Shown here: positions 4,548 through 59,839 of the stretch, piece by piece
Position numbering within the stretch: the stretch's first letter is position 1
Layout of the letters: the number at the start of each line of letters is the position of its first letter
NCBI RefSeq assembly: GCF_008831285.2
Contig: NC_045148.1
Coordinates: 15,478,802-15,542,801, forward strand
Length of the DNA stretch: 64,000 bases
Direction of reading: 5' to 3'
Source of the DNA: Nymphaea colorata
Lineage: Eukaryota > Streptophyta > Magnoliopsida > Nymphaeales > Nymphaeaceae
Notes under the pieces: generated by a model
Told to the model about the DNA's origin: nothing
The model's database searches: none
Seen by the model: the letters and a program-made list of their open reading frames with translations, nothing else
Position numbers and translations under genes: made by a program

Positions 4548-4606
4548 TCGTATTACATCGTTCCACGATTCCTTCATACTCACGAAGTGCCTCAGGTACA
4601 CCTCTT
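4548..4606 (-). pseudogene. Relic of exon 1 of a sterol C5-desaturase-like gene
   Basis: Read on the minus strand, this segment encodes EVYLRHFVSMKESWNDVI, which aligns with residues 3-20 of genes B-D ([18 protein letters not shown]). The start codon is lost: the position that should hold ATG reads GCA. The rest of exon 1 and all of exons 2 and 3 are missing on the downstream side. The leader-side sequence with GCTCGAGAACCGTTA also resembles the gene C leader. This is a sixth copy of the array gene, reduced to a scrap upstream of gene A. Confidence 0.8.
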
Positions 4607-5355
4607 TTGCTCGAGAACCGTTAGACTTAGCAATCTATTTTGGCAAAAAAAAAACTAGCAGGAGGATCAGCAACCTGGCCTTCTGCCGATCCATATTTGA
4701 GACATGGGTTTGCCAACTATGACATCAAATAATAATGAAGATTTTTTTTTAGTTCTGATCACCAAATTAAATGCTCCAGAACAAAACCTGCCTTTAACCA
4801 AATTAAATGCTCCAGAACCAAACCTGCCTTTAAGAGAAATTCGAAAAACTACCATGAGTCCCATCATAAAAAGTCGTTCCATGCTTGGGATGTTTCCTTT
4901 CAAAATCAGTTCATATCTCAATCCAAATCATTATTTCTTGCATAACTTTCACAAAAATGTGGGAGAGACGTGGTTGGATGCACAGGGATGGACCGCGCAA
5001 GCATGACATCTGTCACCCTCATAACATGTTTGCATTATACACAGGCTTGTGCATATAACCAGCTAATAAGCGGCCGAGTCAACCATGCTTGCTTAAAACT
5101 GTCCTGCTTTGAGGGGTTAATAAACTTACCTATGAAACCCCATAAATGATGGCCGGTAAACTTTTATTGTAGCATGTGCCATCAACTTCTTTCATTAATG
5201 GCCGCTGCCTAACCATATAAATGCACTGAATTCGGTTTAGATGAGCTGGTGGTGCTTGGTAATCAAGTTTCGATATGTTGAAATTAGGGACTTACTATTG
5301 TGGCAGTACGTGGATAATGAATAAAAAGCTGTTCATAATAACCACAGGGTGTGGT
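4607..5355. other. Intergenic stretch with one short tandem duplication
   Basis: No gene is recognised. The 36-bp tandem duplication at 4761..4832 is listed separately. Confidence 0.45.
4761..4832. repeat. 36-bp tandem duplication (two copies)
   Basis: The unit begins ACCAAATTAAATGCTCCAGA and occurs at 4761..4796 and 4797..4832 with one mismatch seen. Two overlapping ORFs in this area owe their repeated peptides to it. Confidence 0.9.
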
Positions 5356-5610
5356 TTAACATCCCCAACATTTACGTTTGAACAGAAATCTCCTGTTACT
5401 TAGCTTGCCTGACATGATCAGACGTATGCCCAACCTTCCTTCTGGGGATTCTACTGGAGAAGCTGCCCTCCTGAGTCCCTTCCACAGCAATGGCCACTGT
5501 CTTCTCCCATCTAATAGATTGTGAAGACAATGTTCTGACACTTTACTATTAGAAATTGCCAACAAAGGAAGCCTCCCCTTCTCCTGCCGACTACCGGGTT
5601 CGACTGACAC
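5356..5610 (-). other. Unrecognised reading frame (84 codons)
   Basis: An open minus-strand frame contains the peptide GRRQWPLLWKGLRRAA. Its composition is protein-like and basic, but I do not recognise a family and no neighbouring exon could be joined to it. It may be an exon scrap or a chance ORF. Confidence 0.2.
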
Positions 5611-7863: not shown

Positions 7864-10800
7864 TCAGAAGGCCTTCTGCTGCAGCTTCTTCTTCTTCTTC
7901 TCCTCCTCCTCAGCGTCAGGGTCGCGAAGGGTACCAAAGAACCAGTCCAGAAGTAGGGTGTAGCGGCCATAGTTGTGGCGGTTGGTGGTGTAATGGAGCA
8001 TGTGGTAGCCCGCACCCAAGATGGGCCACACCCTCCCATGGATGCAGTCATGTATGTTGATCGACCAGAGCGCGTCCAGGAAGAAAAGCACCTGGTAGGT
8101 GGTGTAGTGCATTGGCACCAGCAAGATCGCAACCACCTGTGGCGATGTCTCCAGCACAGCATCTACTGGATGAAAAGCGAAACCTACGGTGAAAAAAATT
8201 GAGCAAACAATCACTTCTTCTATCTTTATGGACAAGGAGTACTTAAAGTTAATGCAGGCAAAGGAATGAACTTGAACTTGAGAAAGCTTAATTAGTTAAC
8301 TAACAAATAGTTGGATAAAAAAAGTGCAATTGAATGGGAATAATATAGCTGGTTGGGACAATTCATAGTTTTCAACATGTAACGTGGATTTAAGATCCAC
8401 GTTACAGAGATCCTCAGTTTCTTTTAATGCAGCATCGTAATCATTCCACTCTCCCGGACATATAAAAGAGTGACATCAAGCTGAGCAACACCGGAACTCC
8501 ATGTTTTGAGGATGTAATGATATGCACATGGCAATTTAGGGACAGAGTACCAGGTAATTCATGGTTCCAATATCGAGATCCGTGTAGAGAGTCATCACCG
8601 ACTCTCTTGGAAGAGTCGAGATGACTCAAGAGGCTTGTAGCCTCTTCATTTGTAAAGTCGGTGAGAGTCTCAATTTTAAGTCGGTGGTTATGTAATGATT
8701 AAAGAAGAAAAATAATAATTAAATAAAATAAAGAAAAGTAAATGTGGAAGTCGGTGGAAGCATCCACCACCGACTTCATCTCCCTATAAATAGGGACGTT
8801 GGGTCATAGTGAGAGTGTAAGGAGAAAAATCAAGTTGAGTGATCTTGGGTTCTCACTTTGTGAGTTGGGTGTGTTGAGTGATCTTAGGTTCTCACTTTGT
8901 GAGTTGGGTGTGTGCTCATTTTATGAGCTGGTGAGTGTTAGCTCGTGTGTTCACTTTGTGAACTCGAGTTAAAGTTTCAAGTGTATGCTGCAAGGTCGTT
9001 GGGTATGTTAGCTCACTGCGTGAGTCGAGGTGAGTTTTCTTAAGCCCTCTTTTGTAATATCCAATTTGATGAATAAATAGTTTACTTGTTCAAGTATACT
9101 TTGCCAAGTTCTTATTAAGTATCAGTTTGGACGTCGAGACTCTGCTAGATTTTCTCTGCATAAATTTGAGTTTGTAGCTGAGTTAGGGCCCGCATTACGT
9201 TTTCCAACAAGTGGTATCAGAGCGAGGTTCTGTCCGAGGGCCGATTTATTGGAATAGTTATATCCTGAAATTATGGCGGCATTAGCAGTTGCATTAAACA
9301 ATATAGAGAAACTTAACAATAGCAATTATGGCTATTGGAAATTCTGTATGGAGTCGTATTTTCTAGGACAGGAATTATGGGAGATAGTATTGGGATCAGA
9401 CACTAATGTTCCTGTCGACGAGGAAGCGAAGAAGAAATGGATGATCAAAGCAGGAAAAGCTTTATTTGCAATTAAGGTATCAATCGAGAAAGACTTATTA
9501 GAGCATATACGAGATGCTACGACTCCTAAAGAAGCATGGGATGCTTTTGCAACCCTATTTTCTCGAGCTAATGATGCCCGCCTACAATTGTTAGAAAATG
9601 ATCTAGCTACATTAACTCAGGGAAGCATGTCGATAGCAGAATATTTTATGAAGGTTAAAAATATTTGTAGAGAGATATCTCAAATGGACCCTGAGTCTAA
9701 AATTAGTGAGGCCCATATGCGGAGAATACTTATTCGCGGACTTCGTCCAGAATTTGGTAGTTTTATAATTGGTGTTCAAGGCTGGCCAGTTCAACCAACT
9801 TTGTTGGAGTTAGAAAATCTCTTGATCAATCAAGAAACATTAGCGAAGCAAATGGTCGGGCTTTCTCTCAAGGGAAATAATGAGGAAGCTTTATTTAGTA
9901 AGGGTCAGAGATCACGATGGCCAGCTAAGCCAGCCATTCGGTCTCCAAGTAGGAATATTGCTGAAAAGAAAGAGAAAAATATAGAAAAGAAAACAAGAGA
10001 AACTACACAGCAGTGGAGACCAAAAGTGAAATGTTTTAGATGTGGGAAATTGGGTCATATTGCTCGTGACTGCAGAGTCAGAATAAATGAAGGAAATGCA
10101 GTCATGACAAGTAAGCAAAATGGAGGAGCTAATGAAGTTGTACAGAAAAAATCATTTCTGTACTCAATGGAGGTTAAAGAGGATATTACACAAGAAAGAT
10201 GCAATTCCGCTCATACAAAACCCGTAAAAGAAAAAGAAGAGAAGATCAATTATCAAACTGATTGGATAATTGATTCTGGATGCTCAAATCATATGACTGG
10301 TGATGAGAGCAAGTTTGTAAGTATGAAAGAATATGATGGAAATCGAGTTGTTGTTACTGCTAACAACACAAAGCTCCCGGTGGCACATATTGGAGAAGCA
10401 GAGGTTGTAGCCAACTTCGGTAAAGACCGGATTTTACGGAACGTTTACCATGTTCCAGGAATGACAAAAAATTTGTTGTCTGTGCCACAACTAACAGCTT
10501 TAGGGCACTATGTTTTGTTCGGCCCAAATGATGTGAAAATTTATAAAGACGAAGATGTTCAAGGAACTCCCGTGTTTGAAGGAAGAAAAGTTGAGTCAAT
10601 ATATGTATTGTCAGCAGAAACAGCATATATTGACAAAGCAAAGAAGCATGACACTGCAGATATCTGGCATGAGAGACTCACTCATGTTGGATACAACAAA
10701 CTTCGGGAGATGTCTAATAAGGGCAGTTGATTGGTCTGCCCAAGCTTGAGGTACGAACAGATAAAGTATGCCCAGGATGTCAATATGGAAAGGCGCACAG

Positions 10801-13800
10801 GAGGCCATACAAAGAATCAAAATATAGAGCTAAAGCGCCATTCGAGCTTGTGCATTCACACGTATTCGGTAAAGTACCAGACCCATCAGTTGGAGGTAAG
10901 TGGTATTTTATCACTTTTATTGATGACTTTTCAAGGTATACTTGGGTCTATTTTATGAAAGAAAAGTCTGAAGCACTTGAAAAATTTAAGGAGTTTCACC
11001 AGATGGTGAAAAATGAACTTGGGCATAGAATTCAGTGTCTACGAACCGATAATGGTGGCGAATATACATCAGACATGTTCATGGCGTACATGAAGCAACA
11101 TGGTATTCGTAGGCAATTTACATGCGCCTATACGCCTCAACAAAATGGAGTGGCAGAACGGAAGAACCGCCACATAGCAGAAACGTGTCGAAGCATGATG
11201 CATGCAAAGAACATGCCACCAAGATTTTGGGCCGAGTGTGTCAGCACTGCTGTACACGTAATTAATCGACTACCAATGCCAAGATTTAATTTCAAGTCTC
11301 CATATGAAATGCTTTATAAAAAGAAGTCATCTGTGAGTTATTTTCGAGTATTTGGTTGTGTTTGTTATGTTTTTATATCTGAGCAGCACAGGACTAAGTT
11401 CGATAAAAAGGCACAGAGGTGTGTCTTTGTCGGATATGACCCATATCGGAAAGGATGGAGATGTGCTAATCCTAGCACAGGACAAGTTTATGTTTCTCGC
11501 GACGTCATCTTCGATGAAGCATCATCGTGGTGGTCAGAAGAGAAGAAGACGCTTACAGACTCTCCAGTTCTTGAAAGAGACGTTCAAAACAAAATACAGT
11601 TTGAGATCAATCAAGGAGAGCCTCAGTCTGAAGACATAGAAGTAAGACAACTAGAGAAGCCAGTTCAGATGCCTGAACATAGTCCAAGACGAGAAGAACG
11701 TGCAGATCCATGAAGAACTGGAGTCAGTCCAGTCCAACAAAGAAGTGCAGAAGAAGAAAGACCATCACAATTTGAAGAGCCAGAAGAAGCACCCATGAAT
11801 GTATCGGCAACTGGTTGGAAGCCTAATTTACTTAACATTAACAAGACCAGACATTGCCTATGCAGTAGGTGTTGTGAGCAGGTTTATGCAAACTCCAAGG
11901 AAACCACATTTAGAAGCACTAAAAAGAATATTAAGGTATATCAAAGGAACTCTTGACTTTGGTATACTTTATGAGAAGGGACCAACTTGTCAAGTTGTTG
12001 GTCATTGTGATGCGGATTATGCTGGAGACTTATCAACTCGAAGATCGACCACTGGATATACATTCAGTCTTGGAAGTGGTGCAATTTCATGGTGCAGTAA
12101 GAGACAACCGACAGTTTCACTGTCTACAACAGAAGCTGAATATAGAGCAGCATCTCAAGCAGCACAAGAATGTGTGTGGTTGATGCGACTGCTGAAAGAC
12201 ATTAAACAAGACGTGGATTATGCAGTAAGACTCTACTGCGATAATCAAAGTGCAGTCAGACTTGCAGAGAATCCTGTCTTCCATGCTCGAACGAAACATA
12301 TAGAGGTGGAGCATCACTTTATTAGAGAGAAGGTACTCAAAGGAGAGATTCAGTTGCAACCAATTGCTTCAGAAGATCAAGTCGCTGACATCTTTACCAA
12401 GGGCTTACCAGTACAAACATTCGTAAAACTTCGAAGAATGTTGAGAATCATAAGTAGAGAGTCGGTAATGAGGGGGAGATTGTAGAGAGTCATCACCGAC
12501 TCTCTTGGAAGAGTCGAGATGACTCAAGAGGCTTGTAGCCTCTTCATTTGTAAAGTCGGTGAGAGTCTCAATTTTAAGTCGGTGGTTATGTAATGATTAA
12601 AGAAGAAAAATAATAATTAAATAAAATAAAGAAAAGTAAATGTGGAAGTCGGTGGAAGCATCCACCACCAACTTCATCTCCCTATAAATAGGGACGTTGG
12701 GTCATAGTGAGAGTGTAAGGAGAAAAATCAAGTTGAGTGATCTTGGGTTCTCACTTTGTGAGTTGGGTGTGTTGAGTGATCTTAGGTTCTCACTTTGTGA
12801 GTTGGGTGTGTGCTCATTTTATGAGCTGGTGAGTGTTAGCTCGTGTGTTCACTTTGTGAACTCGAGTTAAAGTTTCAAGTGTATGCTGCAAGGGCGTTGG
12901 GTATGTTAGCTCACTGCGTGAGTCGATGTGAGTTTTCTGAAGCCCTCTTTTGTAATATCCAATTTGATGAATAAATAGTTTACTTGTTCAAGTATACTTT
13001 GCCAAGTTCTTATTAAGTATCAGTTTGGACGTCGAGACTCTGCTAGATTTTCTCCGCATAAATTTGAGTTTGTAGCTGAGTTAGGGCCCGCATTACGTTT
13101 TCCAACAATCCGAATCATGCATGGCTTCCATTTTTCTATCTATAGTTATTATAAGATTATTTTGCTAGAATTTTTTTACCATACCCGCAAATGGAGAAAT
13201 GTTGGTCTGCTTGTTGAACATGTGGTGGCTCGCGTGGAAGTACTTGAACAGTGGCTTTATGTCATGCAGGAGTCGGTGCACCCAGTAGCTCAAAAACTCA
13301 GTGCACAACAGGTAGATGACCATATAGCAAATGTTCATGGGCCAGCCAACTTCCTCTATCCGTGCAAAGCACCTTGTCCACCCTCTCTCACTCATGTACT
13401 CCGACGCTGTCGCCAGTCCAGCATAGAAAGGGAATGCTTTGATGGTCAACCACATCTGCTTCAGTATCGCTGCTTTCCTTGGTATCTTACCTGAACGAGC
13501 AAATTACTTGAGAGTCAAAGCAAAATCCATATATATATATATATATATATTGATGATTCTTTTTATCCGTAGTCGCTCAGTTCACTAAAAATATATATAT
13601 ATATATTTTTCTCTCTCAACTGTTCATTATTATGGTGAATCAGAGCCCACACCGATTGTGCTGTTCATCACTTGAATAGAGAAAAAGAGAAAGAAACAGA
13701 GAGTACCATTGGGAAAGTATACGTGACCCTTGAAGTAGTAGATGTAAAAGGACCAGAGACCAGCGGATAGGAAGCAGTGAGCAATTCCGAAGATGTAGTT

Positions 13801-13920
13801 ACGGAGAAACGTCTGAAAGTAGTGGGGAAGGTTTTCTCCCAGAGCCGAAGGAAGCACCGCTCCCAGAAGCACCCTATTATACAACTCAGTTTGTGACGGC
13901 AGGTACACCTCCTCCTCCAT
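7864..13920 (-). CDS. Gene A: delta(7)-sterol-C5(6)-desaturase-like protein, 279 aa, three exons
   Basis: Exons on the minus strand: 13707..13920, 13185..13490 and 7864..8183, all with GT-AG borders and both introns in phase 1; the spliced length is 840 bp. The product belongs to the membrane-bound di-iron fatty acid hydroxylase superfamily. By family it should introduce the C5(6) double bond into delta-7 sterols in the endoplasmic reticulum. Histidine boxes are HRLLHD at residues 143-148, HASHH at 157-161 and HMLHY at 234-238. The last should be HxxHH, so a normally conserved iron-ligand histidine is Tyr238. Hydrophobic stretches lie around residues 43-63 and 122-142. The C-terminus is lysine-rich (KKKKK near residue 270). 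Intron 1 is 216 bp; intron 2 is 5001 bp because a 4.5-kb Copia element sits in it. A is the most divergent array member. A related superfamily enzyme cannot be excluded. Confidence 0.85.
8379..8405. repeat. Perfect 11-bp hairpin in gene A intron 2
   Basis: GTAACGTGGAT and ATCCACGTTAC are separated by five bases. The hairpin lies about 170 bp from the Copia insertion and has no known role. Confidence 0.8.
8578..8582. repeat. Left target-site duplication of Copia element 1
   Basis: ATCCG at this position is repeated exactly at 13108..13112 on the other side of the element. Five bases is the usual Copia duplication length. Confidence 0.9.
8583..9209 (+). repeat. 5' LTR of Copia element 1
   Basis: The 627-bp LTR includes a TATA-like CTATAAATAG at 8784..8793. 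A hairpin lies just upstream of it (AAGTCGGTGG pairing with CCACCGACTT). Downstream is an internal tandem repeat containing GGTTCTCACTTTGTGAGTTG. Confidence 0.95.
9212..9223 (+). promoter_or_regulatory. Primer-binding site of Copia element 1
   Basis: TGGTATCAGAGC lies two bases after the 5' LTR and is complementary to the 3' end of initiator tRNA-Met, the usual plant Copia primer. Confidence 0.9.
9273..10730 (+). CDS. Copia 1 gag-protease ORF, frameshifted at its end
   Basis: The 485-codon frame opens with a Copia gag domain ([17 protein letters not shown] near residue 15). A CCHC zinc knuckle, [14 protein letters not shown], is at residues 254-267. The aspartic protease active site, DSG, is at 334-336 within [11 protein letters not shown]. 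The start of the integrase zinc-binding region ([15 protein letters not shown], from about residue 463) closes it. Gag packages the RNA and the protease cuts the polyprotein. The frame ends at TGA in the middle of the integrase HHCC region; the sequence resumes in the next frame, so an indel near 10724-10730 breaks the original single ORF. Confidence 0.9.
   Translation: MAALAVALNNIEKLNNSNYGYWKFCMESYFLGQELWEIVLGSDTNVPVDEEAKKKWMIKAGKALFAIKVSIEKDLLEHIRDATTPKEAWDAFATLFSRANDARLQLLENDLATLTQGSMSIAEYFMKVKNICREISQMDPESKISEAHMRRILIRGLRPEFGSFIIGVQGWPVQPTLLELENLLINQETLAKQMVGLSLKGNNEEALFSKGQRSRWPAKPAIRSPSRNIAEKKEKNIEKKTRETTQQWRPKVKCFRCGKLGHIARDCRVRINEGNAVMTSKQNGGANEVVQKKSFLYSMEVKEDITQERCNSAHTKPVKEKEEKINYQTDWIIDSGCSNHMTGDESKFVSMKEYDGNRVVVTANNTKLPVAHIGEAEVVANFGKDRILRNVYHVPGMTKNLLSVPQLTALGHYVLFGPNDVKIYKDEDVQGTPVFEGRKVESIYVLSAETAYIDKAKKHDTADIWHERLTHVGYNKLREMSNKGS
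10727..11713 (+). pseudogene. Copia 1 integrase, frameshifted and with altered catalytic residue
   Basis: Continues the pol frame after the indel. It shows the CPGC half of the zinc-binding HHCC motif and then the integrase core: [23 protein letters not shown] (second catalytic Asp) and [11 protein letters not shown] (catalytic Glu). At 10859..10861 the codon expected to be the first catalytic Asp reads CAC (HSHVFGK in place of HSDVFG), which by family knowledge should abolish strand transfer. A Copia-type C-terminal region with VFGCVCYVF follows. The frame stops at 11713, just before a large deletion. There is no in-frame ATG, so it would be read only as part of a polyprotein. Confidence 0.85.
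11799..12485 (+). pseudogene. Copia 1 end of reverse transcriptase plus RNase H
   Basis: The frame begins abruptly in the last part of the reverse transcriptase domain ([19 protein letters not shown]). It then carries an RNase H domain with [15 protein letters not shown] and LYCDNQSAV, which hold the expected catalytic acidic residues, and [13 protein letters not shown] near the end. The fingers and palm, including the YVDD motif, are absent: a deletion joins the integrase tail to this point and also shifts the frame. The stop at 12483..12485 lies just inside the 3' LTR. Confidence 0.9.
12469..12479 (+). promoter_or_regulatory. Polypurine tract of Copia element 1
   Basis: TGAGGGGGAGA immediately precedes the 3' LTR, where plus-strand DNA synthesis would be primed. 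Confidence 0.8.
12481..13107 (+). repeat. 3' LTR of Copia element 1
   Basis: 627 bp, nearly identical to the 5' LTR. Differences that I see are near 12669 (within CCACCAACTT), 12893, 12927, 12940 and 13055. Confidence 0.95.
13108..13112. repeat. Right target-site duplication of Copia element 1
   Basis: ATCCG, identical to 8578..8582. Confidence 0.9.
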
Positions 13921-20729: not shown

Positions 20730-21642
20730 ATGATGACTCTAGCAATCTAGATTTACCAGTCATCTAATTAAGGTCATTTATTTAATGCAGTTGAATGGTT
20801 CAGAGAAGAACATCAAAAATAAAAAATAAAAACTAATATTGTGCATGTGTATAGAGAGTGTAGATTTCGGTACCTAGTGAATAGTGCATTTCCAAGATTA
20901 CTAGTGAAGCACATGTGGGCATTTTCTAAACATGCAAATTATTTCAGATCGAAGAGTACTCCAACTCGTCTCACCAATCAACTCAGAGTCATCTCAAGGT
21001 AGGGTTGAGAGAACACCATTTTTTATGGGAAAAGCAATTCCAAGCTTTCCCATTGCAGAATGCTTGTGGACATAATTAACTTAAGTTGCTATTTGAGTAG
21101 TTGGGGCATCTACTTCTTGGTCCTACACTAGCCTTTCTCCAATTAAACCACATTCCCATTTTTACTCGGTCCTTATAATTGTGATTTTCCAACTCGCATC
21201 AAATAAAGTAATCAATAAACTGAAAATGAAAATGCATTTTTGAAAAGGCATGGAACCACGGTGCAGATCAGAATGCAGTGCTCCTTCTCCGTTTGGTAGG
21301 GACGCGTGTTTCTGCGATGTGGCAGGGTTGTGCACAGTTTTCAGTTCACTCCACTTGCCCATTCGCTACTCAATTATTAGAAAACACCAAGTACACTAAT
21401 CGACCATGGTCGACCACTGTGAGGTATGAAATAACTCGTATTACAATCTTCTACGTTTCAAAGATGTGAAACACTATACGGGTAGTGCACACTTCCAAAT
21501 AACGGCGACGCGGTCCATGCGTCCTTACAAACACCACATAGCATACATTACAAGAACAGACCCAACAAGCAACTCTACTTACTGATTATATATGAGACGG
21601 ATGATATAGATATATATATGTATTGGTGACGATGATATGGTC

Positions 21643-24600
21643 TCAGATGACCTTCTCCTCTTCCTGTTCGGGTTCGTATAGGGTGCCAAAGAGCCAGTCC
21701 ATGAGGATGGTATAGCCGCCATAGTTGTAGCGGCTCTTGGTGTGATGGATCTTGTGGTATCCGCCACCCATGACCGGCCAGACCTTCCCATGGATGCAGT
21801 CATGGGCGTTGGCGGCCAGCACACCCTTGCAAACGAAGAGCAACTCGTGCGTAACGAAATGCATCGGAACGACGAAGAGCGCCAGGGCTTGTGGTGCTGC
21901 CTGCACTATCCCGTCTATGGGATCGAATGCATACCCTGTAACCACGTTCTCACATCACAAACATGGACATTTGTTGAGGGGTTATTTCTTCATGTAACTT
22001 TTCATTCATTAAAAGCAAACTCTTGTACCTTGTGTACACGTTTGTGTTTATGTATCCCTTTACATATCAAACAATATCAAGGTTGTTTATATTTTATTTA
22101 TAAAGTTCAAAACACTTGTTACGGTGGTAGTTTGATTGTGTATCATCCTATATGAGGTCATGTCAACCGCTACAACTTTTATGTTCCCCACTATCTTTAA
22201 CAGCGAGCTCTTTTGGACAGGGGCAGAGCAAGGGTGGACTCATGGGAGCCCTAACCCCACCCCAAATTTTTTAAAAAGAAAGTTTATATGTAAATTTTAT
22301 AAAATTTCATTTGTTTTATATAAAAATTTTAAAAATTAATATTTTGGTCCTAGTCAAAATTTAAAACTTTAATTCGGCCCCGCTCATGAAAATTTTTCGG
22401 CTCCGCCCACGCTTTTAGGGATCTTGATTTTTGAAACATTTGTTCTAAGAACACCATTTTCTTGTTCTATAAAATATGGTTTAATTGTGGATGTTGTTTT
22501 AGAAACATATATTATTAGAAGATAGCCTTCTTTAGGAGGCTGTTCATAATCAATAGCATAAACATTTGCCACAAAAAGTGGGGCAGATTGACAAAACATT
22601 TTTTTAAGTTTGCAGTGAATTTAGTTTATTTTTGGGTTAGATGCATGAGACAACAACATAGTGTTACTGTTCCTAAATTAAACCGCCTTTAAATTGAAAA
22701 AGCTTTTTTTATTTAAACTTAAAATTAATTTAAAAGCTCAAAATAGTTTCTAGATTTTTTGTGTAAAGCACTAACAAAAATCATCAACCTGTACCTGCGA
22801 AGGGGGAAATTGTATCTTCCTTGTTAAATTCATGATGGGTTGCATGAAAGCACTTGTAGAGGGGCCTTACGTCATGCATTAATCTATGAGTCCAGTAAAG
22901 TCCAAACTCAGCGATGAACAGATAAAGAGTCGTGTAGAGGATGTGCATGGGCCAACCAACTTCTTCTACTCTCACGAAGGTCTTTGTGCATCCCTTCTCG
23001 ATCACGTACTCTGCAACTGCTGGCAACAGAGTGAAGAGGGGCAGAGCCTTCATACTCACCCAGACTTGCTTTAACATGACCCTTTTTGTTGGCATCCGAC
23101 CTGCATAATATTGGTTGCACGAAAAGATAATGAAAATATGAAGTACAACACAGTCGAAACTTTCGTTAAGTCAGAGTATATGTTGAATATGGAAACACGA
23201 GACGTTCATGTTTTTTTTGTTAGAGGATTCGGATAGAAAACCCACCAAGAGCAGTGTCCTTCAATTAGAAGGGTGCCGAAAATATTAGTTGTCAGATGTC
23301 CCAACATGTTACAGTTTGAGTCTAAGCTCATTCTGGCGACTTTTCACAATTGAAAGCTTACCTCCAAACTAGAGAAAGAGAGAGTCTAAGCTCTTTCTGG
23401 CACATTACATAATTCAAAAGTTTGTTGAAACTAGTGAGGGAGAGGAGAGGGGAGAAGAGGGGGACAAGAATCGGCTCACTTAACTTCATAACCACACAAA
23501 TAATGTCAAGGTCAATACTATTCATCAATACCATCAAGATTGAACCTTCTAAAAATTTGAGAGAATAAGAGGAAGAAAGAGAGAGATGGTAGGAAGAGAG
23601 AGGGACCACAACCCAGTTCACTTAGCTTTCATAATAGCACCTTTCAAAATTTAAACTGAAAACTTAGCCATAACATACTACCCAACCCAACTGATTGCGC
23701 TACCCATCACTAAAGACAGGCCAGGTCTGTTTACTTGAGGTGCTACCCTCCTCTGCTTCATGGGGTGATTCCTGCCCCAACGCAACCCTAGACCCTTGAG
23801 GCGGGAGGAGGATGGGTAACTTTCAAGCTAACTAAAAAGAATTCGCTGTAGACCTTTTTTGAATTCCCGAATTTGAATGTGGTGCTTGAGAATTACAGGC
23901 TTAACATCTGTGGCCGTGAATCCTAAATAATCTGCATTTGTATCATTATAGAAAAAAGGAAACTCAATCTTGAGAAGTTGAGGAGCCCCATATATAAGCT
24001 ATGTATTATGCATACACGTTCAGTAGGGATATGCCGGAATAAAAAGCATATAAATATTAAACATCAATCAAGAAGAAGTTGCATGGTGGGGTCCGGCCAT
24101 TTAAAGAGCATGGCCAGACCGTCGATGGATCGAGCCCAGTGTCTTGGACTGGCCTGCCCTGATTGCGTTTCGAGAAATCCAGGACTTGTCAAACATGATG
24201 AGCAGCCGTTGATTCCACAGTTTTTTCAAAGGAAAAGGACCCACCTCACTGGTTCGCAGTTTGAATGAGTCTAGGGTTGGTTGGGGCAGAAATCACCCCA
24301 TGAAGCGGAGGAGGGTAGCACCTCAAGTAAACAAACTGGTGGCTATGACATCCACGAGCAATTTAGGTAAACTTACAACAAATTTGAACAAAAATTGATG
24401 AGCAAAATTAAAGATAAAATCAAGGCCTCCAAAAGCCTTAACGATGGAAGTGACGTTTGTTATGATATTGAAAGGTAAAATTTGCAAGTGCGAACGTTTG
24501 TTCTCTAAAGAAAGAAAGAGAAGGTCACGCACAAACAACTTCTCGAACACGAAGGGGTAAGTGATTCCATGATGCACAGACCCCATTTTGTGCTTCTAAA

Positions 24601-25051
24601 CACCTTTAAAATAAGTGAAAATAGCTTCTTCTTTTTTTTTTTGCTTTGTCCCATAAAACACATCGATTTGCTAAGGGAAAACCCTGCAGGTTGACATGGG
24701 TTTGGACCTTATTCAAAAGACTAAATGGAAAATCATTAAGTAAAATTTGGTGACAAGAAGTTACGAAAATACAAATATGAAAAACTAAAAAAGAAGAAAA
24801 CAAAACAACGAAAAGCAGAGAAATAGGAGGGGAGAGAGACCATTAGGGAAGTAGACATGTGGCTTTAGGTGGTAGATATAGAAGCACCAAATGGTGCTAG
24901 GAATGAGGAGCAAGAGGGTGGCGGTGATGAAGTTTCGGAGCCACGACTGAGCAAAATGAGGCAACGCTGCCCGCCAAGCGTAGTCACCAAGAACCACATC
25001 GTTCCACGACTCCGTCATTCTCACGAACTGCCTCAGGTACGCCTCTTCCAT
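21643..25051 (-). CDS. Gene B: delta(7)-sterol-C5(6)-desaturase-like protein, 269 aa, three exons
   Basis: Exons on the minus strand: 24841..25051 (211 bp), 22795..23100 (306 bp) and 21643..21935 (293 bp). Both introns are phase 1 with GT-AG ends, and the sum of 810 bp is an open frame. Fatty acid hydroxylase superfamily; the expected role is C5(6) desaturation of sterols in the ER with di-iron at the histidine boxes. All three are intact: HRLMHD at residues 142-147, HATHH at 156-160 and HKIHH at 233-237. Membrane segments are likely near residues 42-60 and 122-140. Residue 108 is Cys where A, C and D have Trp. The tail ends EEEKVI. The ATG at 25051 is chosen because it matches MEE starts in the other copies. 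Intron 1 (1740 bp) holds a 610-bp inverted-repeat element absent from C and D. Confidence 0.88.
22205..22410. repeat. Dispersed AAAATTTT-type repeat in gene B intron 2
   Basis: Runs from GGGGCAGAGCAAGGGTGG through AT-rich AAAATTTT segments to TCGGCTCCGCCC. It is matched by 35805..35990 in gene C intron 2. Gene D intron 2 lacks it at the corresponding place, which explains its shorter intron. Confidence 0.6.
23721..24339. mobile_element. ~610-bp terminal-inverted-repeat element in gene B intron 1
   Basis: The left arm starting GTTTACTTGAGGTGCTACCC (23729) and the right arm ending GGGTAGCACCTCAAGTAAAC (24332) are reverse complements over about 66 bp with few mismatches. The interior (about 23800-24265) is non-coding. 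Genes C and D lack the element in intron 1. Element edges are approximate and I found no target-site duplication, so the superfamily is not assigned. Confidence 0.75.
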
Positions 25052-25306
25052 CTCTCGCACTCTCTCTCTCTTTCTCTCTGCTTGAGAACTGAACTGCTAA
25101 GAGTTGGCAATTTAAGTAGCCAGAAGAAGAAGGCAGGGGAGAGCTCGCCTTCTTCTTGGATGAGAAGTGTTGGGATAAGGGTTACCCACACACCACCATT
25201 GTCTGCAACAAACATGCACCACAAAGGAAATAAAGGCATTTTTTTTTCTTTTTTTTGTAAAGTAGAGAACATTTTAAACGTTGTTTTTTCGCAAATCGTT
25301 ATTTAC

Positions 25307-25314
25307 CTTTATAA
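25307..25314 (-). promoter_or_regulatory. Candidate TATA box of gene B
   Basis: The minus strand reads TATAAAGG about 260 bp upstream of the start codon. The same octamer is kept at 38183..38190 (gene C) and 60125..60132 (gene D). The leader would be long, so this is tentative. Confidence 0.3.
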
Positions 25315-25700
25315 AAAAAAAATTCTTTTTCTATGTTAATGAGATATTTTGTTCATTGCATATCTCTGTGCATGAAAAAATCGTGTTCAAGGCGCTATAA
25401 TACATAACCTGCTTCCTTTATAACTAGTGGCGGAAAAGGTCACACGTCCGTGGGCACCGCCGGTGTTGAAAATCTCAAATAATGAAGGTGATCTTGTATT
25501 AAGAAAAATAACCTGCTTGTAATCACAAGAATGTAAAAGAAGAAAATAGTTTTGTTACATGACTTTAATATCAAATGATCCAAGTACTTCTCAAACAAGG
25601 CGACGCTTTTATAATAGCCTCCTCGTTATTTGGTCATTCCAAAAATAAACATATGGCAGCCGACACCTTGGATCAAGTCCTTTGGATTCCAAAATTAAAA

Positions 25701-28301: not shown

Positions 28302-28347
<46 letters not shown>

Positions 28348-28568: not shown

Positions 28569-28571
28569 AAG

Positions 28572-32860: not shown

Positions 32861-32922
<62 letters not shown>

Positions 32923-35223: not shown

Positions 35224-37945
35224 TCAGATGACCTTCTCCTCTTCCTGTTCGGGTTCGTATAGGGTGCCAAAGAGCCAGTCCATGAGGATGGTGTAGCCGC
35301 CATAGTTGTAGCGGCTCTTGGTGTGATGAATCTTGTGGTATCCGCCACCCATGACGGGCCAGACCTTCCCATGGATGCAGTCATGGGCGTTGGCGGCTAG
35401 AACACCTTTGCAAACGAAGAGCAACTCGTGCGTAAGGAAATGCATCGGAACCACGAAGAGAGCCAGGGCTTGTGGTGATGCCTGCACTATCCCGTCTATG
35501 GGATCGAATGCATACCCTGTAACCACAACTCTCACATCATAAACATCACGAAGCAATGCACACCTGTTTGAGGGGTTATTTCATGTAACTTTTTATTGAA
35601 AGCAAGCTCTGTACCTTGTGTGCGCTCGTTTGTGTTCATCTATCGCTTTGTATATCAGCCAATATCAAGGTTTTTCTAAATTATATTTATGAAGATAAAA
35701 ATAGTTGTTACTAGTGGTAGTTTGATTGTGTATCGTCTTATATGGCGTCATGTCAGCTGCTACAACTTTTATGTTGGCCACTATCTTTAAGAGCAAGTCC
35801 TTCTCAGCATGGGGAGAGCCGGGGTAAGGCCGGCATGGGCCATGGACGTACCTCAATTTAAAAAAAAAAATTACATTAAAATTTTAAAAAACCTCACTTG
35901 TTTTATATAAAAATTTTGAAAAACGGTCTTAGTCAAAATTTAGAAACATTAATTCTGCCATCCTCATAAAAAATTTTTTGCTCCGCCCTTATTTTTGGGG
36001 ATCTTGATTTTTGAAACATTTGTTCTAAAAGCAACTGTTTTCTTCTTCTATGAAATATGGTTTAATTGTGAATGTTGTTTAAGAGCATATTCTTAGAATA
36101 TAGTAATGTTGGGGAACAATAACATATGCATTTGCTACAAAAAAAAAATGAGTCAGTTTTACGAAACACATTTTTAAGTGTGCAGTAAGTATAATTTATT
36201 TTTTTGGTTAGATGCATAAGACAGTAACGTTATGGTTCTTAAATTATACTCCTCTAAATCTAAAAGGTTATTTAAATTTAAAATCAATATAAAAGCTCAA
36301 AATAGTTTCTAGATTTTTTGTGTAAAGCACTAACAAAAATCATCAACCTGTACCTGCGAAGGGGGAAATTGTATCGCCCTTGTTAAATTCGTGATGGGTT
36401 GCATGAAAGGACTTGTAGAGTGGCCGTATGTCATGCATTATTCTATGTGTCCAGTAAAGTCCAAACTCGGCGATGAGCAGATAAAGAGTCGTGTAGAGGA
36501 TGTGCATGGGCCAACCAACTTCTTCTATTCTCACGAAGGTCTTTGTCCATCCCGTCTCGATCACGTACTCTCCAACTGCTGGCAACAGAGTGAAGAGAGG
36601 CAGAGCCTTCATGCTCACCCATACTTGCTTAAACATGACCCTTTTTGTTGGCATCCCACCTGCATGATATTGGTTGCAGGCAGTGATCAGAATGTAAGTA
36701 ATGATAATATCAACTAAAAGCCACCTAGGGCACTGTCCTTCGTTTAGAAGGGTGTCGAAAATATTAGTTTTCAGATGTCCCAACGTGTTGCAGTTTGAGT
36801 CTAAGCTGTTTTTGGCAAGTTTTCACAATTGAAAACTTGCCTGGAAACTATGGAGAGAGGGAGGGAGAGAGTCTAAGCTCTTTCTGGCACTTTACATAAT
36901 TCAAAAGTTTCTTGAAACAAGTGAGAGAGGAGAGGAGAAGGGAGAAGAGGGGGATAAGAATGGGCTCACTTGGCCTCATAAGGACACAAATAATTTTTAA
37001 ATCAACACTACTCATCGATCCCATCAAGATAAAACCCTCCAGTAAGAGTGAAAGAGAGAAAGAGAGGGATGGGAGGAAGAAAAAGGGAGGGCAACAGGTT
37101 CACTTAGTTTTCATAATAGCACCCTTTAAAATTTGAAGTAAGGAAGTGCAAGATCAAAACTAATTTCATTTCAGTGAAACGGATCGGAGAGCAATGCATG
37201 TAAAACGTACAACAAATTTGAACAAAAAAAATGATGAGTAAAATTAAAGATAAAATCAAAGCCCCTAAAACCCTTAACGATGGAAGTGACGTTTGTTGTG
37301 AGATTGAAAGTTAAAGCTTAAAAGTAGAACGTTTATTCTATAATGAAAGCATAATTCTTTATTATCCGAATATGCCACAAGCCATAACCTCCAAAGAAAA
37401 CACCAACTGTTGGATTTCTAGATCTCCCTTAGACCAAAGAAAGGAGGTCACGCACAAACAACTTCTCGGACACGAAGGGGTCAGTGATTCCATGATGCAT
37501 GGACCTGATTTTGTGCTTCTAAACACCTTTAAAATAAATAAATAAAAAGAGCTGCTTTGTCTTTGTCGCATAAGACAAATCGATTTGCTAAAGAAAAACC
37601 CCAAGATTGCATGTTGACATGAAAAATTATTAAATAAAATTTGGTGACAAGAAGTTACGAAAATACAAATATGAAAAACTAAAAAAGAAGAAAACAAAAC
37701 AACGAAAAGCAGAGAAATAGGAGGGGAGAGAGACCATTAGGGAAGTAGACATGTGGCTTTAGGTGGTAGATATAGAAGCACCAGATGGTGCTAGGAATGA
37801 GGAGCAAGAGGGTGGCGGTGATGAAGTTTCGGAGCCACGACTGAGCAAAATGAGGCAACGCTGCCCGCCAAGCGTAGTCACCAAGAACCACATCGTTCCA
37901 CGACTCCGTCAGTCTCACGAACTGCCTCAGGTACGCCTCTTCCAT
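35224..37945 (-). CDS. Gene C: delta(7)-sterol-C5(6)-desaturase-like protein, 269 aa, three exons
   Basis: Exons on the minus strand: 37735..37945 (211 bp), 36354..36659 (306 bp) and 35224..35516 (293 bp). GT-AG borders, both introns phase 1, 810 bp in total. Same superfamily and expected ER role as gene B. Histidine boxes are intact: HRIMHD, HATHH and HKIHH. Residue 108 is Trp, as in A and D. The third box is followed by [11 protein letters not shown], where gene A has NRHNYGRYT. The tail ends EEEKVI, as in B. In-frame ATG codons also lie upstream (MGEKV at 37957 in the same frame), so the start could be slightly longer; 37945 matches the MEE start of the others. Introns are 1075 and 837 bp. 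No defect is seen, so this copy looks functional. Confidence 0.9.
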
Positions 37946-45254: not shown

Positions 45255-48033
45255 CTTTGATATACACACATATATATACTTATTTCATATAATTCCCATG
45301 GTAACTAAACCCATGTAGAGATCCGAATATGGTTCGAGAAATTTGACGTTTTTCAACCGTGTTAGACGGTGATTATGGTTCGACCATCTGCAGATCTGAA
45401 TGCAGTAATGCATGCCTAATTCTTTCATGTACGTAGCGTCCATTATTATCAGGTTCATAAATTCTGCTAGTGGTCTCTTAGTTTCGCCCAGATCATTAAC
45501 CACGAGGACCGGTTTAAAGGACTGAAGTGAAAGAAGATTTGGATTCGAAAGCAGAAATAATAATCAACGGATTCATCCTTCGATCGTTAAAACCATACAT
45601 CTGTGCAAAAGGAGTGGAGTTTTCAGTTCGTCGCATAAATAGACAGACAGTCGTATTGGAATGGTCTCAGAACACACCAGCAGGACAGAGATAAGTGGGG
45701 TTCCTTTATGAACCTACTTTAAAACCTTAAATCTATAGTGAATTTAGGTGTACTTAGTCCAATTATATAAAGTAGCTTTAGGAGAATCAACTGGGGAGTT
45801 AGAAATTTTTTACCAAGGGAAGCAAATTAAAGTTTTTAAATTTTAAATAGAACCAAAATATCATTTTTCAAAATTTTTATATAAAACAAGTAAAACTTTC
45901 TAAAATTTATATATAAATTAAAAAAATTTGAGATGGGGATCAAAGTTCAAGTGGGCCGTACCTTAACTCCGCCCCGTACCTTAACTCCGCCCCCAAAAAG
46001 ATCACTACCTCGTGAACTTGAATGAACTCACATAGATCCACTAAACTTCTTCTCTTCTTTAACCCACTAAATAATCGTATCTGCCTTCACATTTGCTTCA
46101 TACCACCCGACGTAGTTGATATCCAACTAAATAACGCCAAAAGCATATAAAACAAATTCAGATGCATGTATATTTGCGGGTTCCTGTGCACAAAAACACA
46201 CACAAGCGCGCCCATGCACGTAGCCCGAAAACAGCAGACCCCAGAATCAGACTGAGGGGGTCAAATAAAATATTGATGCGGGTCAGTTTCAAACTTATGG
46301 TATCATTAATTAACCATAGTAAAAGGTGCAAGGGTCAGCTGGCGAGCCTGGCCTGGGCTGCCTTTGGAAGTAATTCTGTGGTTGAGTTGACGGCGACTGA
46401 TCAAACCGGCCCGACCAATATCGGCAGAACTGGTCTGCGGGTGAATATTGTGATGCTTCTTCATCCCAAGGCAAGGCCTTGTCACCTTGTAATAAAATTT
46501 CAACTACTTTCGCTCGATCAACTGATCAGTCATGAGCTGAGCAGACCAGGTAGACGGACTAGCTATTTTGCAGATCTCTGCAGTGCTTGGTTTGACTAGC
46601 AGGGATCTGGTGGCAGACGTGTGACTCATGACCCAATTCCAATTGTGACAAATACAGTTCCCAAAAATATTGTGTAGCGAGGTACTTATTGACGGAGCTG
46701 TAATCTTGGGAAATTCGAAGAAAAATCTCAGAAAAATAAAACACAGAAAAATAACAATGGAAAAATAAACACATAAGTTTCTCTTTTAATATTTAAAAGT
46801 GTCGTCAAAGATAGAAAGTGTAGGGCTTTTTCGTGATTTGAATGGTTTTAGAATATACTTTTTGACTTAAATATTCTGCATGTTACTGTTTGTAGTTCAA
46901 ATAGTAGTACCAATGAGAATCCAGCTTTACAAAGTAGCTGTTACCCAAATGACAAACCTGCTGATCAAAATCCACTCGGTTCTATAAGCCATGAAGTCTG
47001 AATTAAACAAAAAAAATATTATTTGATATTGATTTTTTTGGGGTTTTTTTCACAAAAATCACATCAACTGTTATTTTTACCACAAAATAGCTTGAAAATA
47101 TGAATTGCAGATATTAGTGACGAAAAGAAACCCACATTTATGCAATAATTTCTATGAAGAGTATATTTTTGGTTTCTCGATTAAGTGAACATCTTACTTG
47201 GTTAAACCATGTTTTTGAGGTTAATATTTACCTTGAGATTTGCAGGACAGAATTGTTGAAGTTGTGAATCAATTAACTTAATCTTTGATGTAGAGGCTCA
47301 TTACTGCAATTACGCCAGCTCGCATTGCACCATCTTGGGAGAGAGAGAGGGAGGAGGAGAAAGATTTGAGGCGAACACCAGTTAGGTTTTGCGGGAACAA
47401 TCGCAGAAAAGATGGCTGGTTGGAGATATTCAGATCTGAACCCAGGGATGTAAATGGGTCGGTAAGATTCAAGTCTGATGTTGGAGATATTCATATATAT
47501 GTAGTTGGATTTTTTGACGAAAGGAAAAGGAATCCTAGCCACATTCAGACTCAGATTTGGCAGCTTTGTTCTGGTATCCCAATCCAACTCCAAGTCTGAA
47601 ATCTGATAACAATCTTACCCGATTATACATCAAAGCCGGATCTTACATACCCATGCAAATTCGTGACTTTCAAAAGTTCAAGCTCGATCCTGAGTCCAAC
47701 TCTGATAATCAAGGAGGATCTGATTAGATCGATTAGAGTAACTGGTGGATCCTAACTAGGGGTGGAGCTAGAAAATTTTCATGAGCAGGGTAACTAGTGG
47801 ATCCTAGCTAGGGGTAGAGCTAGAAAATTTTCATGACCAGGGTTCAGTTATACTTTCAAAATTTTGATAGGGGCCGAAATATCAAACTTCAGAATAAATG
47901 AAATTATAAAAATTTTATATGTAAATTTATGATTTTTTTTTTCTGAAGGGGGGCGAGGGCCCCCTGTCTCTGCTCCTGATCCAAACTAATTAACCCGAGT
48001 CGAAGACATCTAAACCTCTACTTGAACAACATG

Positions 48034-48080
<47 letters not shown>

Positions 48081-49043
48081 AAATGATGACTCTAGCAATT
48101 TAGATTTACCAGTCATCTAATTAAGGTCATTTATTTAATGCAGTTGAATGGTTCAGAGAAGAACATCAAAAATAAAAAATAAAAACTAATATTGTGGATG
48201 TGTATAGAGAGTGTAGATTTCGGTACCTAGTGAATAGTGCATTTCCAAGATTACTAGTGAGGCACATGTGGGCATTTTCTAAACATGCAAATTATTTCAG
48301 ATCGAAGAGTACTCCAACTCGTCTCACCAATCAACTCAGTCATCTCCATTGTTAATAAAAAGGAAAAGGTAGGGTTGAGAGAACACCATTTTTTATGGGA
48401 AAAGCAATTCCAAGCTTACCCATTGCAGAATGCTTGTGGACATAATTAACTTAAGTTGCTATTTGAGTAGTTGGGGCATCTACTTCTTGGTCTTACTTAC
48501 ACTAGCCTTTCTCCAATAAAACCGAACATATTTCTGTCCTGTACAGCCACATTCCTATTTTTACTCGGTCCTTATCATTATGTTTTTCCAACTCGTAATC
48601 AGTAAACTGAAAATGAAAATGCATTTTTGCAAAGGCATGGAACCACGGAGCAGATCAGAATGCAGTGCTCGTTCTCCGTTTGGTAGGGACGCGTGTTTCT
48701 GCGATATGGCAGGGTTGTGCACAGTTTTCAGTTTTTACTCCACTTGCTCATTCGCTACTCAATTATTAGAAAACACCAAGTACACTAATCGACCATGGTC
48801 GACCACTGTGAGTTATGAAATAACTCGTATTACAATCTTCTACGTTTCAAAGATGTGAAACACTATACGGGTAGTGCACACTTCCAAGTAACGCCTACGC
48901 GGTCCATGCGTTCTTACAAACACCACATAGCTCACATTACAATAACAGATCCAACAAGCAACTCTACTTGCAGTTGCAGATTATATATGAGACTGATGAT
49001 ATATATATATATATATGTATATATATTGGTGGGGATGATACGA
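45255..49043. repeat. Second copy of the B-type block (3' side), gene-less
   Basis: Follows 17696..21642 in order, without the 345-bp MITE and with shorter TA and GA runs (near 48032-48080). The last ~400 bp is the 3' flank of a desaturase gene, closest to the D flank. No functional gene is present. Confidence 0.8.
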
Positions 49044-49066
49044 TCAGAAGACCTTCTCCTCTTCCA
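49044..49066 (-). pseudogene. Last codons of a deleted desaturase gene copy
   Basis: The minus strand reads EEEKVF and stop (TGA at 49044..49046), exactly the C-terminus of gene D. It is preceded by the usual 3' flank, but upstream the match stops within a few bases and the sequence jumps into an ACTCGACTCG-type repeat like that upstream of gene C. Exons 1, 2 and nearly all of exon 3 are gone. Roughly 3 kb appears to be deleted between the end of exon 3 and a point upstream of the promoter. Confidence 0.85.
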
Positions 49067-52007: not shown

Positions 52008-52545
52008 TGATTCTTGAATAGAGTTCCACTCTTTGACTTCAATGTTAAATCTCTTCCCCAAGAACTGGCGTGTTTGTTTTGAAAGCCTGCACCTAATGAA
52101 AAGATGAACATTTCACTCCTCCAGACATCTGCATAAGTAACAGCGATTTCCCAAGAATATGCTGAACCTTTGAGTTGTGTCCTTGGTCTGTGGCCTTCTC
52201 CTCAACCAACTGGCCATGGCGATGGTGCATTTCTTCTGCCACACTTTTCTACAGTTTGGATCAGGGGGCTTTTATTCCTAACCTCATTAATAAATCCATT
52301 TTTGTGGATAAAGAATGCACCTGGTTTTACTTTTCTACACAATAGAGGTTATCTTCAGTACCAGAAAGAGAGGAAGAAGATAGAACAAGAGATAAGGCGG
52401 GCGAAGATAAATTAAGGCTAAGGTTGAACTGTTTATTTATTAAGGACGTGACAAACTGAGAATTGTCTAGCCACATCCTTATACACTTACCATTACCAAG
52501 CCGCCACACAAGAAATGGCTAATTGCATTCCATTTCCAAACACAA
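52008..52545 (-). pseudogene. LINE ORF2 C-terminal remnant (degraded zf-RVT)
   Basis: The minus strand carries WRLGNGKCIRMWLDNSQF near 52.5 kb, the usual motif before zf-RVT in plant LINEs. A degraded copy of the zf-RVT segment lies near 52.05-52.2 kb. It is a sister of the copies at 33.4 and 54.2 kb. Confidence 0.6.
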
Positions 52546-56272: not shown

Positions 56273-57225
56273 TAAATCATGACTCTAGCTATGTAGATTC
56301 ACTAGCCATTAATTAAGGTCATTTATTTAATGCGGTAGAATGGGTGAGAGAAAAACAAGAAAAAAAATTGAAAACTAATACTGTGCATGTGTATAGAAAG
56401 TGTACATGCTGGCATTTTCTAAACATGCAAATTATTTCAGGTCGAAGAGTACCCCAACTCGTATCACCAATTAACTCAAAATCATCTCTATTGTTAATAA
56501 AAAGGAAAAGGTAGCCTAGAGAGAACATCATTTTTTCTGGGAAAAGCTATTCCAAGCTTTCCCATTGCAGAATGCTTATGGACATAATTAACTTAAGTTG
56601 CTATTTGAGTAGTTGGACCATCTACTTCTTGGTCTTGCACTAGCCTTTCTCCAATTAAACCAAACATAATTTCTCTCATGTACCGCCACATTCCCATTTT
56701 TACTCGGTCCTTATAATTATGTTTTTCCAACTCGCATCAAATAAAATAATCAATAAAATGAAAATGAAAATGCACTTTTGAGAAGCCATGGACCCACGGA
56801 GCTGATCAGCATGCAGTGCTCGTTCTCCGTTTGATAGGAACGCGTGTTCCTGCGCTGTGGCAGGGTTGTGCACAAATTTCAGTTTATTCCGCTTGCTCAT
56901 AAGCTGCTCAATTATTAGAAAACACCAAGAATACACCAAGTACTCATAAGCTGCTCAATTATTAGAAAACACCAAGAATACACCAAGTACACTAATCGAC
57001 CACTGTGAGTTATGAAATAACTCATATTACAATCTTTTACGTTCCAAAGATGTGAAACACAACACGGGTAGTGAACACTTCCAAGTAACGCCGACGAGGT
57101 CCCTGCGTCCTTACAAACACCACATAGCTCACATTACAATAACAGAACCAACAAGCAACTCTAGTTGCAGATTATATATGAGACGGATGTATATATATAT
57201 ATTTATGTTGGTGGGGATGATACGA
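55371..57225. repeat. Duplicated block, 3' side of gene D
   Basis: Begins at GCAACCATGGTTTTGAGG and follows 19815..21642 in order: AACACCAGTTAGGTTTTG, an AAAATTTT repeat at 55.94-56.11 kb, a (TA)n(GA)n run at about 56.19-56.27 kb, then the 3' flank. No other gene is seen. Confidence 0.7.
56896..56989. repeat. 47-bp tandem duplication in gene D 3' flank
   Basis: The unit starting CTCATAAGCTGCTCAATTAT occurs at 56896..56942 and 56943..56989. The other gene copies have one unit at this place. Confidence 0.9.
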
Positions 57226-59834
57226 TCAGAAGACCTTCTCCTCTTCCAGTTCGGGATCGTAAAGGGTGCCAAAGAGCCAGTCCATGAGGATGGTATAGCC
57301 GCCATAGTTGTAGCGGCCCTTAGTGTGATGGATCTTGTGGTATCCGCCACCCATGACCGGCCAGACCTTCCCATGGATGCAGTCATGGGCGTTCGCCGCC
57401 AGCACACCCTTGCAGACGAAGAGCAACTCGTGCGTAGCGAAGTGCATCGGAACCACGAAGAGCGCCATGGCTTGTGGTGCCGCCTGCACTATTCCGTCTA
57501 GGGGATGGAATGCACACCCTGTAACCACGTTCTCACATCACAAACACGAAGCAATGGACATTTGTGGAGGGGTTATTTGTTCATGTAATTTCTTATTCAA
57601 AGCAAGCTCTGCACCTTGTGTGTGCGCGTTTGTGTTTATGTATCACTTTACATGTCAACCAATATCAAGGTGTTTTTATATTATATTTATAAAGTTAAAA
57701 GTAGTTGTTACTGGTGGTAGTTTGACTGTGAATCATCATACGGGGTCATGTCAGCCGCTACAACTTTTATGTTGGCCACTATCTATCTTCAACAGCCATT
57801 TTAGGGATCGTAATTTTTGAAACTTTTATTCTAAGAACACCATTTTTTTGTTCTATGAAATATGGTTTAATTGTGGATGTTGTTTTAGAAACATGCATTC
57901 TTAGAATATAGTCTTTTTTCAAGAGGCTGTTCAGATCAATAACAGATGCATCTGCCGCAAAAAGTGGGGCAGAGTCACTTTAGTTTCATTTTGTTTTTGG
58001 ATTAAATGCATGGGACAGTAACATTATTATGTTACTGTTACTAAATTAAACTGCCTATTGAAGGGTTATTTAAACATAAAATCAACATAAAAGCTCAAAA
58101 CAGTTTCTAGATTTTTTTGTGTAAAGCACTAACAAAAATCATCAACATGTACCTGCGAACGGGGAAATAGTATCTTCCTTGTTAAATTCGTGATGGGTTG
58201 CATGAAAGGACTTGTAGAGTGGCCGTATTTCATGCATTAATCTATGTGTCCAGTAAAGTCCGAAGTCGGCGATGAGCAGATAAAGAGTCGTGTAGAGGAT
58301 GTGCATGGGCCAACCAACTTCTTCTACTCTCACGAAGGTCTTTGTCCATCCCATCTCGATCACGTACTCTCCAACTGCTGGCAACAGAGTGGAGAGAGGC
58401 ATAACCTTCATGCTCACCCATACTTGCTTTAGCATGACCCTGCTTGTTGGTATCCGACCTGCATAATATTGGTTGCACTCAAATATCACAATGTTTTCAA
58501 GTACATCACTCGGTCGAACGTTTCACAAGTCACAGTATATGTAGAATATGGAATACGAGACGTTCTTTATTTTTTTGGGGGGTTGAAGGATTCCGATCGA
58601 AAACCCACCTAGAGCAGTGCCCTTCAGTTAGAAGGGTGCCGAAAATATTAGTTTTCAGATGTCCCAACATGTTACAGTTTGAGTCTAAGCTCTCTCTAGC
58701 AACTTTTCACAATTGAAAAGTTACCTCCAAAGAGAGAGAGTCTAAGCTCTTTCTGGCACTTTACATAATGCAAAAGTTTCACAAGAATCGGCTAGTTTCA
58801 CAAGAATCGGCTCACTTAAACTCATAACGACACAAATAATGTCAAGGTCAACACTATTCATTAATACCATCAAGATAGAACCTTCCAAAAGTTGACATAG
58901 AAAGAGAGAGATGGAAAGAAGAGAGAAGGACCACAACGGGTTCACTTAGCTTCCATAAGAGCACCCTTCAAAATTTGAACTGAAAATGTGTCTATAACAT
59001 GTTACCAAACCCAACGGTTGCGCTACCCATCACTGAAGAAAGAGCCGAAAACTAATTCCATTCAAATATGTAAAACTTACAACAAATTTGAACAAAAGAT
59101 GATGAGTAAAACTAAAGATAAAATCAAAGCCCCCAAAAGCCTTAACGATGGAAGTGACTTTTGTTATGAGATTGAAAGGTAAAACTTGAAAGTAGAACGT
59201 TTGTTCTCTAAAGAAAGCACTATTCTTTATCATCCGAATATGCCACAAGCCATAACCTCCAAAAAAAAATCACCATCTCTTGGATTTCTAGATCTCTCGC
59301 AGAACAAAAAACATGGTCACGCACAAACAACTTCTCGAACACGAAGGGGTAATTGATTCCATGATGCACAGACCCCATTTTGTGCTTCTAAACACCTTTA
59401 AAATAAGTGAAAATAGCTTCTTTTTTTTTTGCTTTGTCCCATAAAACACATCGATTTGCTAAGGGAAAACCCTGCAGGTTGACATGGGTTTGGACCTTAT
59501 TCAAAAGACTAAATGGAAAATCATTAAATAAAATTTGGTGACAAGAAGTTACGAAAATACAAATATGAAAAACTAAAAAAGAAGAAAACAAAACAACTAA
59601 AAGCAGAGAAATAGGAGGGGAGAGAGACCATTAGGGAAGTAGACATGTGGCTTTAGGTGGTAGATATAGAAGCACCAGATGGTGCTAGGAATGAGGAGCA
59701 AGAGGGTGGCGGTGATGAAGTTTCGGAGCCACGACTGAGCAAAATGAGGCAACGCTGCCCGCCAAGCGTAGTCACCAAGAACCACATCGTTCCACGACTC
59801 CGTCATTCTCACGAACTGCCTCAGGTACGCCTCT

Positions 59835-59839
<5 letters not shown>
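57226..59839 (-). CDS. Gene D: delta(7)-sterol-C5(6)-desaturase-like protein, 269 aa, three exons
   Basis: Exons on the minus strand: 59629..59839 (211 bp), 58153..58458 (306 bp) and 57226..57518 (293 bp). GT-AG borders, phase 1 introns, 810 bp open frame. Same superfamily and expected ER role as B and C. Histidine boxes are HRLMHE (Glu where the others have Asp after the second His), HATHH and HKIHH, so all metal-ligand histidines are kept. Exon 3 starts with CAFHPLDG, partly closer to gene A (FAFHPVDA). The tail ends EEEKVF. Exon 1 is nearly identical to that of gene B, whereas exons 2 and 3 differ clearly. Introns are 1170 and 634 bp. A long (CT)n run abuts the start codon. Looks functional. 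Confidence 0.88.

Follow-up and report, generated by a model that had tools for sequence, protein, structure and literature searches.

A stretch of chromosome 11 of the water lily Nymphaea colorata carries a tandem array of STE1/DWF7-like genes, relatives of the Delta7-sterol C5(6)-desaturases, which stands apart from the probable STE1 of the plant on chromosome 7. STE1 forms the Delta5 bond of plant sterols, feeding brassinosteroid synthesis. Peroxidase genes tie the genome to N. colorata: the best 21 of 21 peroxidase matches, compared by eye, lie within the intervals of N. colorata peroxidase genes in Table 1 of PMC11788295, and some further matches, such as C3:17903690 and C9:18907601, fall in none of them. 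The window, the 64,000-nucleotide stretch of DNA analysed here (C11:15478802-15542801, with C11 and C7 denoting chromosomes 11 and 7 of a 407.8-Mb genome in 783 contigs), contains four three-exon STE1-like genes, all on the minus strand: gene A (7864..13920; exons 13707-13920, 13185-13490 and 7864-8183), gene B (21643..25051; exons 24841-25051, 22795-23100 and 21643-21935), gene C (35224..37945; exons 37735-37945, 36354-36659 and 35224-35516) and gene F (57226..59839; exons 59629-59839, 58153-58458 and 57226-57518). Exon 2 measures 306 bp in all four genes, exon 1 is 214 or 211 bp long, and both introns are in phase 1 with GT donors and AG acceptors; with exon ends placed by hand from the alignment rather than from transcripts, splicing leaves an uninterrupted frame of 279 aa in A and of 269 aa in each of B, C and F. 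The initial annotation had reported the four minus-strand genes, the common 306-bp exon and the phase-1 introns, and each was read as it had stated. Its proposal of a tandem STE1-like array is likewise supported, the genes being neighbouring same-strand paralogues within repeated units; the tandem family is genuine and belongs to a familiar type.

In Pfam scans of ten pieces, all eight from exons 2 and 3 passed the PF04116 cut-off and neither of the two exon-1 pieces matched this domain. Once spliced, F (E 1e-23), A (E 1.1e-21) and the chromosome 7 gene, termed C7a here, all scored above the same cut-off. A search with F recovered exons 2 and 3 from B and C at E values between 7e-59 and 2e-57, and from A at about 1e-35, values low enough to exclude chance similarity. 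Searches of genome_contigs and viral_contigs with degenerate patterns (two short stretches each) found no relatives outside this genome, the profile had no match among solved structures, where a single-exon query gave weak matches (best E 0.19), and no RNA families or tRNAs were detected at the thresholds applied. The literature consulted on water lily and C5-desaturases does not describe the array, which may nonetheless have been published elsewhere.

Beyond the four genes, the window contains the two scraps that had been reported, which we located at 4551-4607 and 49044-49065. Relic 1 (4551..4607, minus strand) comprises 19 codons resembling the start of exon 1, with best tblastn E values of 3.9e-4 with B and F and 0.001 with C (composition correction off), and no other exon was located nearby. 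Relic D (46113..49065, minus strand) is the downstream portion of a repeat unit that ends in an exon-3 remnant, the final 22 coding bases with the stop codon included (49044-49065); the gene body is absent, and the upstream sequence of the unit is joined directly to the exon-3 end. The deleted gene body and the repeated intergenic units point to copy turnover, in which unequal crossing-over together with gene conversion would have added copies, deleted others, as in relic D, and homogenised those that stayed. A stretch beginning LPHFSTVW in the repeated intergenic units (39857-39928 and 52236-52292) bears a faint likeness to exon 1, with E values of 0.077 and 0.41, at which we do not claim it as a further scrap. 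The range previously given for the array, 4548-59839, is correct for the contents of the window, but the array itself starts to the left of it: a fifth open gene, G5 (C11:15474930-15478349), with a 279-aa frame and a 306-bp exon 2, adjoins the left edge, and pieces of a decayed copy lie left of G5 at C11:15463536-15464370.

Genome searches with F and with C7a returned one and the same close set, consisting on chromosome 11 of A, B, C, F, G5 and the decayed pieces at 15463536-15464370, and on chromosome 7 of C7a (2199697-2205068), C7b (2253869-2259081) and C7c (2360295-2364249). C7a and C7b have open frames of 272 aa and 274 aa, both with a 306-bp exon 2; reading of the sequence revealed a frame break in exon 1 of C7c, which is represented in the comparisons by exons 2 and 3 only. 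All matches outside the close set are weak (E 1.6e-7 or worse); among other PF04116 proteins of the genome, the best match to F has E 1.6e-7 at 36% identity and the best to C7a has E 2.2e-4. When compared with C7a, G5 is 64% identical, B, C and F are 62-63% identical and A is 55-56% identical. The Arabidopsis STE1 sequence used here (AtSTE1) shares 70% identity with C7a, above the 53-61% of the array genes, which makes C7a the probable housekeeping STE1 of the plant; the array would then consist of paralogues sharing 55-64% identity with C7a and not be the main STE1. The initial annotation had pictured a usually low-copy housekeeping gene copied in place: the copies are indeed STE1 relatives, but the probable housekeeping gene sits on another chromosome. 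Within this genome and one Arabidopsis sequence, nothing placed the best hits outside the sterol C5-desaturase clade. As observations in their own right, C7b and C7c are two more diverged STE1-like genes near C7a, several PF04116 matches fall within 95 kb on chromosome 10 (C10:11147481-11242361) and may form a further tandem family of lipid enzymes, and PF04116 proteins also occur on chromosome 2.

The order in which these genes arose was addressed with trees. In the best protein tree, which includes the one Arabidopsis sequence, AtSTE1 lies outside all water lily genes, suggesting that the paralogues may date from the water lily line; the forks concerned are weakly supported, and the tree leaves the branching of C7a, AtSTE1 and the array undecided. 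Constraining A, B, C, F and G5 to one group was not rejected (p-AU 0.49), and in a codon tree rooted on C7b the array genes group with 84/90 support (not starred), so that a single origin of the array genes is possible. Among the array genes A has the longest branch, at 0.59 changes per site, and the branch shared by C7b and C7c measures 0.81.

To describe the surroundings, about 30 kb to the left and 39 kb to the right of the window were retrieved and ORFs of at least 110 aa considered. Of the six flank pieces scanned, one resembled a calmodulin-binding protein, two were of the leucine-rich-repeat/kinase type, two were of the Core-2/I-branching type and one matched nothing; a sterol gene cluster around the array was therefore set aside, none of the six being a sterol gene, although intron-rich genes were possibly missed. 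The lineage-specific sterol or other lipid chemistry suggested by the initial annotation may exist, and these six pieces gave no sign of it. Microsynteny between the array and the C7a locus was not seen either, with no shared neighbour gene in the 10 kb on either side of C7a, where the sole match of at least 60 bits sits in a stretch with Copia-like ORFs, as judged by eye. To the right of the array, C11:15562400-15582200 contains at least two Core-2/I-branching (PF02485) pieces, apparently another tandem family.

The PF04116 histidine motifs are HX3H, HX2HH, HX3H and HX2HH, and all ten box histidines are present in B, C, F, G5 and C7a. Gene A retains nine, its third box reading HMLHY, with tyrosine at C7a position 240 where the nine other aligned rows have histidine; we take this position to be a metal-binding site. 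Because a presumed metal-ligand histidine is lost, gene A is probably inactive, and its still open frame argues against long decay. The earlier count of four intact genes thus stands for the reading frames, open in all four, but not for the box histidines, of which A lacks one. In C7b and C7c an aspartate replaces the box histidine at position 224, where human SC5D has proline. According to PMC2799552, the enzyme contains four metal-binding domains made up of histidines. Intron 2 of gene A also accommodates a Copia-type LTR element (8583..13107, plus strand, opposite to the gene), flanked by a 5-base target duplication, ATCCG; gag and integrase domains were found in two of three pieces scanned, the third being without any domain, and its LTRs differ at only 5 of 628 sites, which marks the element as young. 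An older Copia-type element lies between B and C, with LTRs (27858-28568 and 32450-33138) that are 87.6% identical and contain a long TA microsatellite, and with one piece carrying gag-pol domains.

Away from the boxes, we compared 70 reference columns in which C7a, AtSTE1 and human SC5D agree. These are kept at 52 positions in A, 55 in each of B, C and F, 57 in G5 and 50 in C7b, and at 40 in C7c, which has 10 gaps. T237 is replaced by lysine in all four of B, C, F and G5, and B, C and F are further altered at W215 and I219, residues that C7a shares with AtSTE1 and human SC5D. Changes at these three positions lend some weight to a neofunctionalised array, in which the diiron centre is kept but the enzyme works on a different lipid, at a different position, or as a hydroxylase in place of a desaturase, with C7a still there for the housekeeping step; in the same direction, a bacterial ornithine lipid hydroxylase model matches F (E 2.9e-13) better than C7a (E 5.7e-6), though F stays far under its 475-bit cut-off. 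Retention of all ten box histidines and of the overall length, and the lack of pathway gene neighbours among the scanned flank pieces, speak against such a shift, which we regard as possible but somewhat improbable. A further reading, a water lily branch of C5-desaturase relatives with a new lipid reaction arising from altered active-site surroundings and with A kept as a non-catalytic partner, appears to us improbable.

Substitution rates bear on the age of the copies and on selection. By the NG86 method, B, C and F differ from one another by a dS of 0.11-0.14; the values are 1.1-2.0 between A, G5 and the B/C/F group and 1.7-2.2, near saturation, between the array and C7a. Against the N. colorata genome-duplication peak of about 0.9 (PMC7015852), B, C and F look much younger, and the split of the array from C7a looks older. 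The same divergence bears on whether an assembly or haplotype artefact has multiplied a single gene: the assembly is in 783 contigs, yet copies whose dS ranges from 0.11 to about 2, with differing introns and insertions, in a window with 0 N, render this exceedingly improbable. The B, C and F pairs have dN/dS of 0.22-0.36, with a significant synonymous excess in all three (whole gene, p 1.5e-5 to 7e-4; exons 2 and 3 alone, p 8e-5 to 6e-4; counts rounded, and the pairs, which share sequences, not independent). Purifying selection has acted on these three young copies. This is difficult to reconcile with an array of redundant copies of little or no function on their way to loss, a reading that draws on two remnants inside the window and one beyond, on gene A with its missing histidine and Copia insertion, and on exon 2 of C and F, where dN (0.063) is close to dS (0.070). 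Given that five frames are open, splice sites are retained and the synonymous excess has accrued since the B/C/F duplications, we consider such decay unlikely.

Synonymous changes are distributed unevenly along B, C and F, with 0-1 at 45-46 sites in exon 1 and 16-21 at 130-131 sites in exons 2 and 3 (p 0.002-0.046 for the contrast). In gene B, exon 1 and its flanks (24514..25467, minus strand) are 96-100% identical to F, compared with 64-98% in 100-column steps outside this patch, and over about 21452-21747 B is 98-99% identical to C. The low exon-1 divergence and the B/F and B/C patches match the expectation for gene conversion and are termed conversion-like here.

Taken together, we favour, at about an even chance, a lineage-specific tandem family of STE1-like genes that probably still encode C5(6)-desaturases, gene A being probably inactive. 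The products of B, C, F and G5 would be PF04116-type membrane diiron enzymes which, with O2 and with cytochrome b5 as electron donor, place a C5-C6 double bond in Delta7-sterols; these sterols may supply a specialised pool or tissue, by analogy with the tomato C5-desaturase (C5-SD). Retained desaturase activity is suggested by the PF04116 match, the identity to C7a, the complete histidine set of B, C, F and G5 and the synonymous excess in all three B/C/F pairs; the mechanism follows that of ERG3, which uses iron, O2 and cytochrome b5 (PMC2799552), and tomato C5-SD is the precedent for use in a specialised branch (PMC4756317). Weighing against retained desaturases are the departures from the reference columns, 15 of 70 in B, C and F and 13 of 70 in G5, T237 to K included, the placement of AtSTE1 outside the water lily genes with weak forks among C7a, AtSTE1 and the array, and the near equality of dN and dS in C-F exon 2. 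An array alongside a probable housekeeping gene in an early-branching flowering-plant lineage makes it possible to ask whether such plants, as tomato did, turned duplicated sterol enzymes to a second pathway, and supplies natural variants at otherwise shared positions that are useful for assay.

Compared with known systems, the array shares with plant STE1/DWF7, represented here by C7a, the domain, the length, the 306-bp exon 2 and the phase-1 introns, as well as, in every array gene except A, which lacks one, the full set of ten box histidines; it differs in its tandem arrangement and in its lower identity, 55-64% with C7a and 53-61% with AtSTE1, where C7a itself reaches 70% with AtSTE1. Other PF04116 proteins of the genome, such as those on chromosomes 10 and 2, share the domain at far lower similarity. 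Water lily is not known to have a glycoalkaloid pathway. A functional parallel that we propose is tomato, where C5-desaturases are duplicated and C5-SD belongs to the specialised cholesterol and steroidal glycoalkaloid branch: its silencing lowered cholesterol and alpha-tomatine, it brings back ergosterol in a yeast erg3 null, and the authors speculate that C-24 alkylsterols are served by a separate paralogue (PMC4756317). Tomato C5-SD was thus assayed by silencing and yeast erg3 rescue, whereas the water lily genes are known from sequence. Duplicate C5-desaturase transcripts are also reported for Dioscorea transversa (PMC10267570), and the array described here may function in a similar way to these duplicates.
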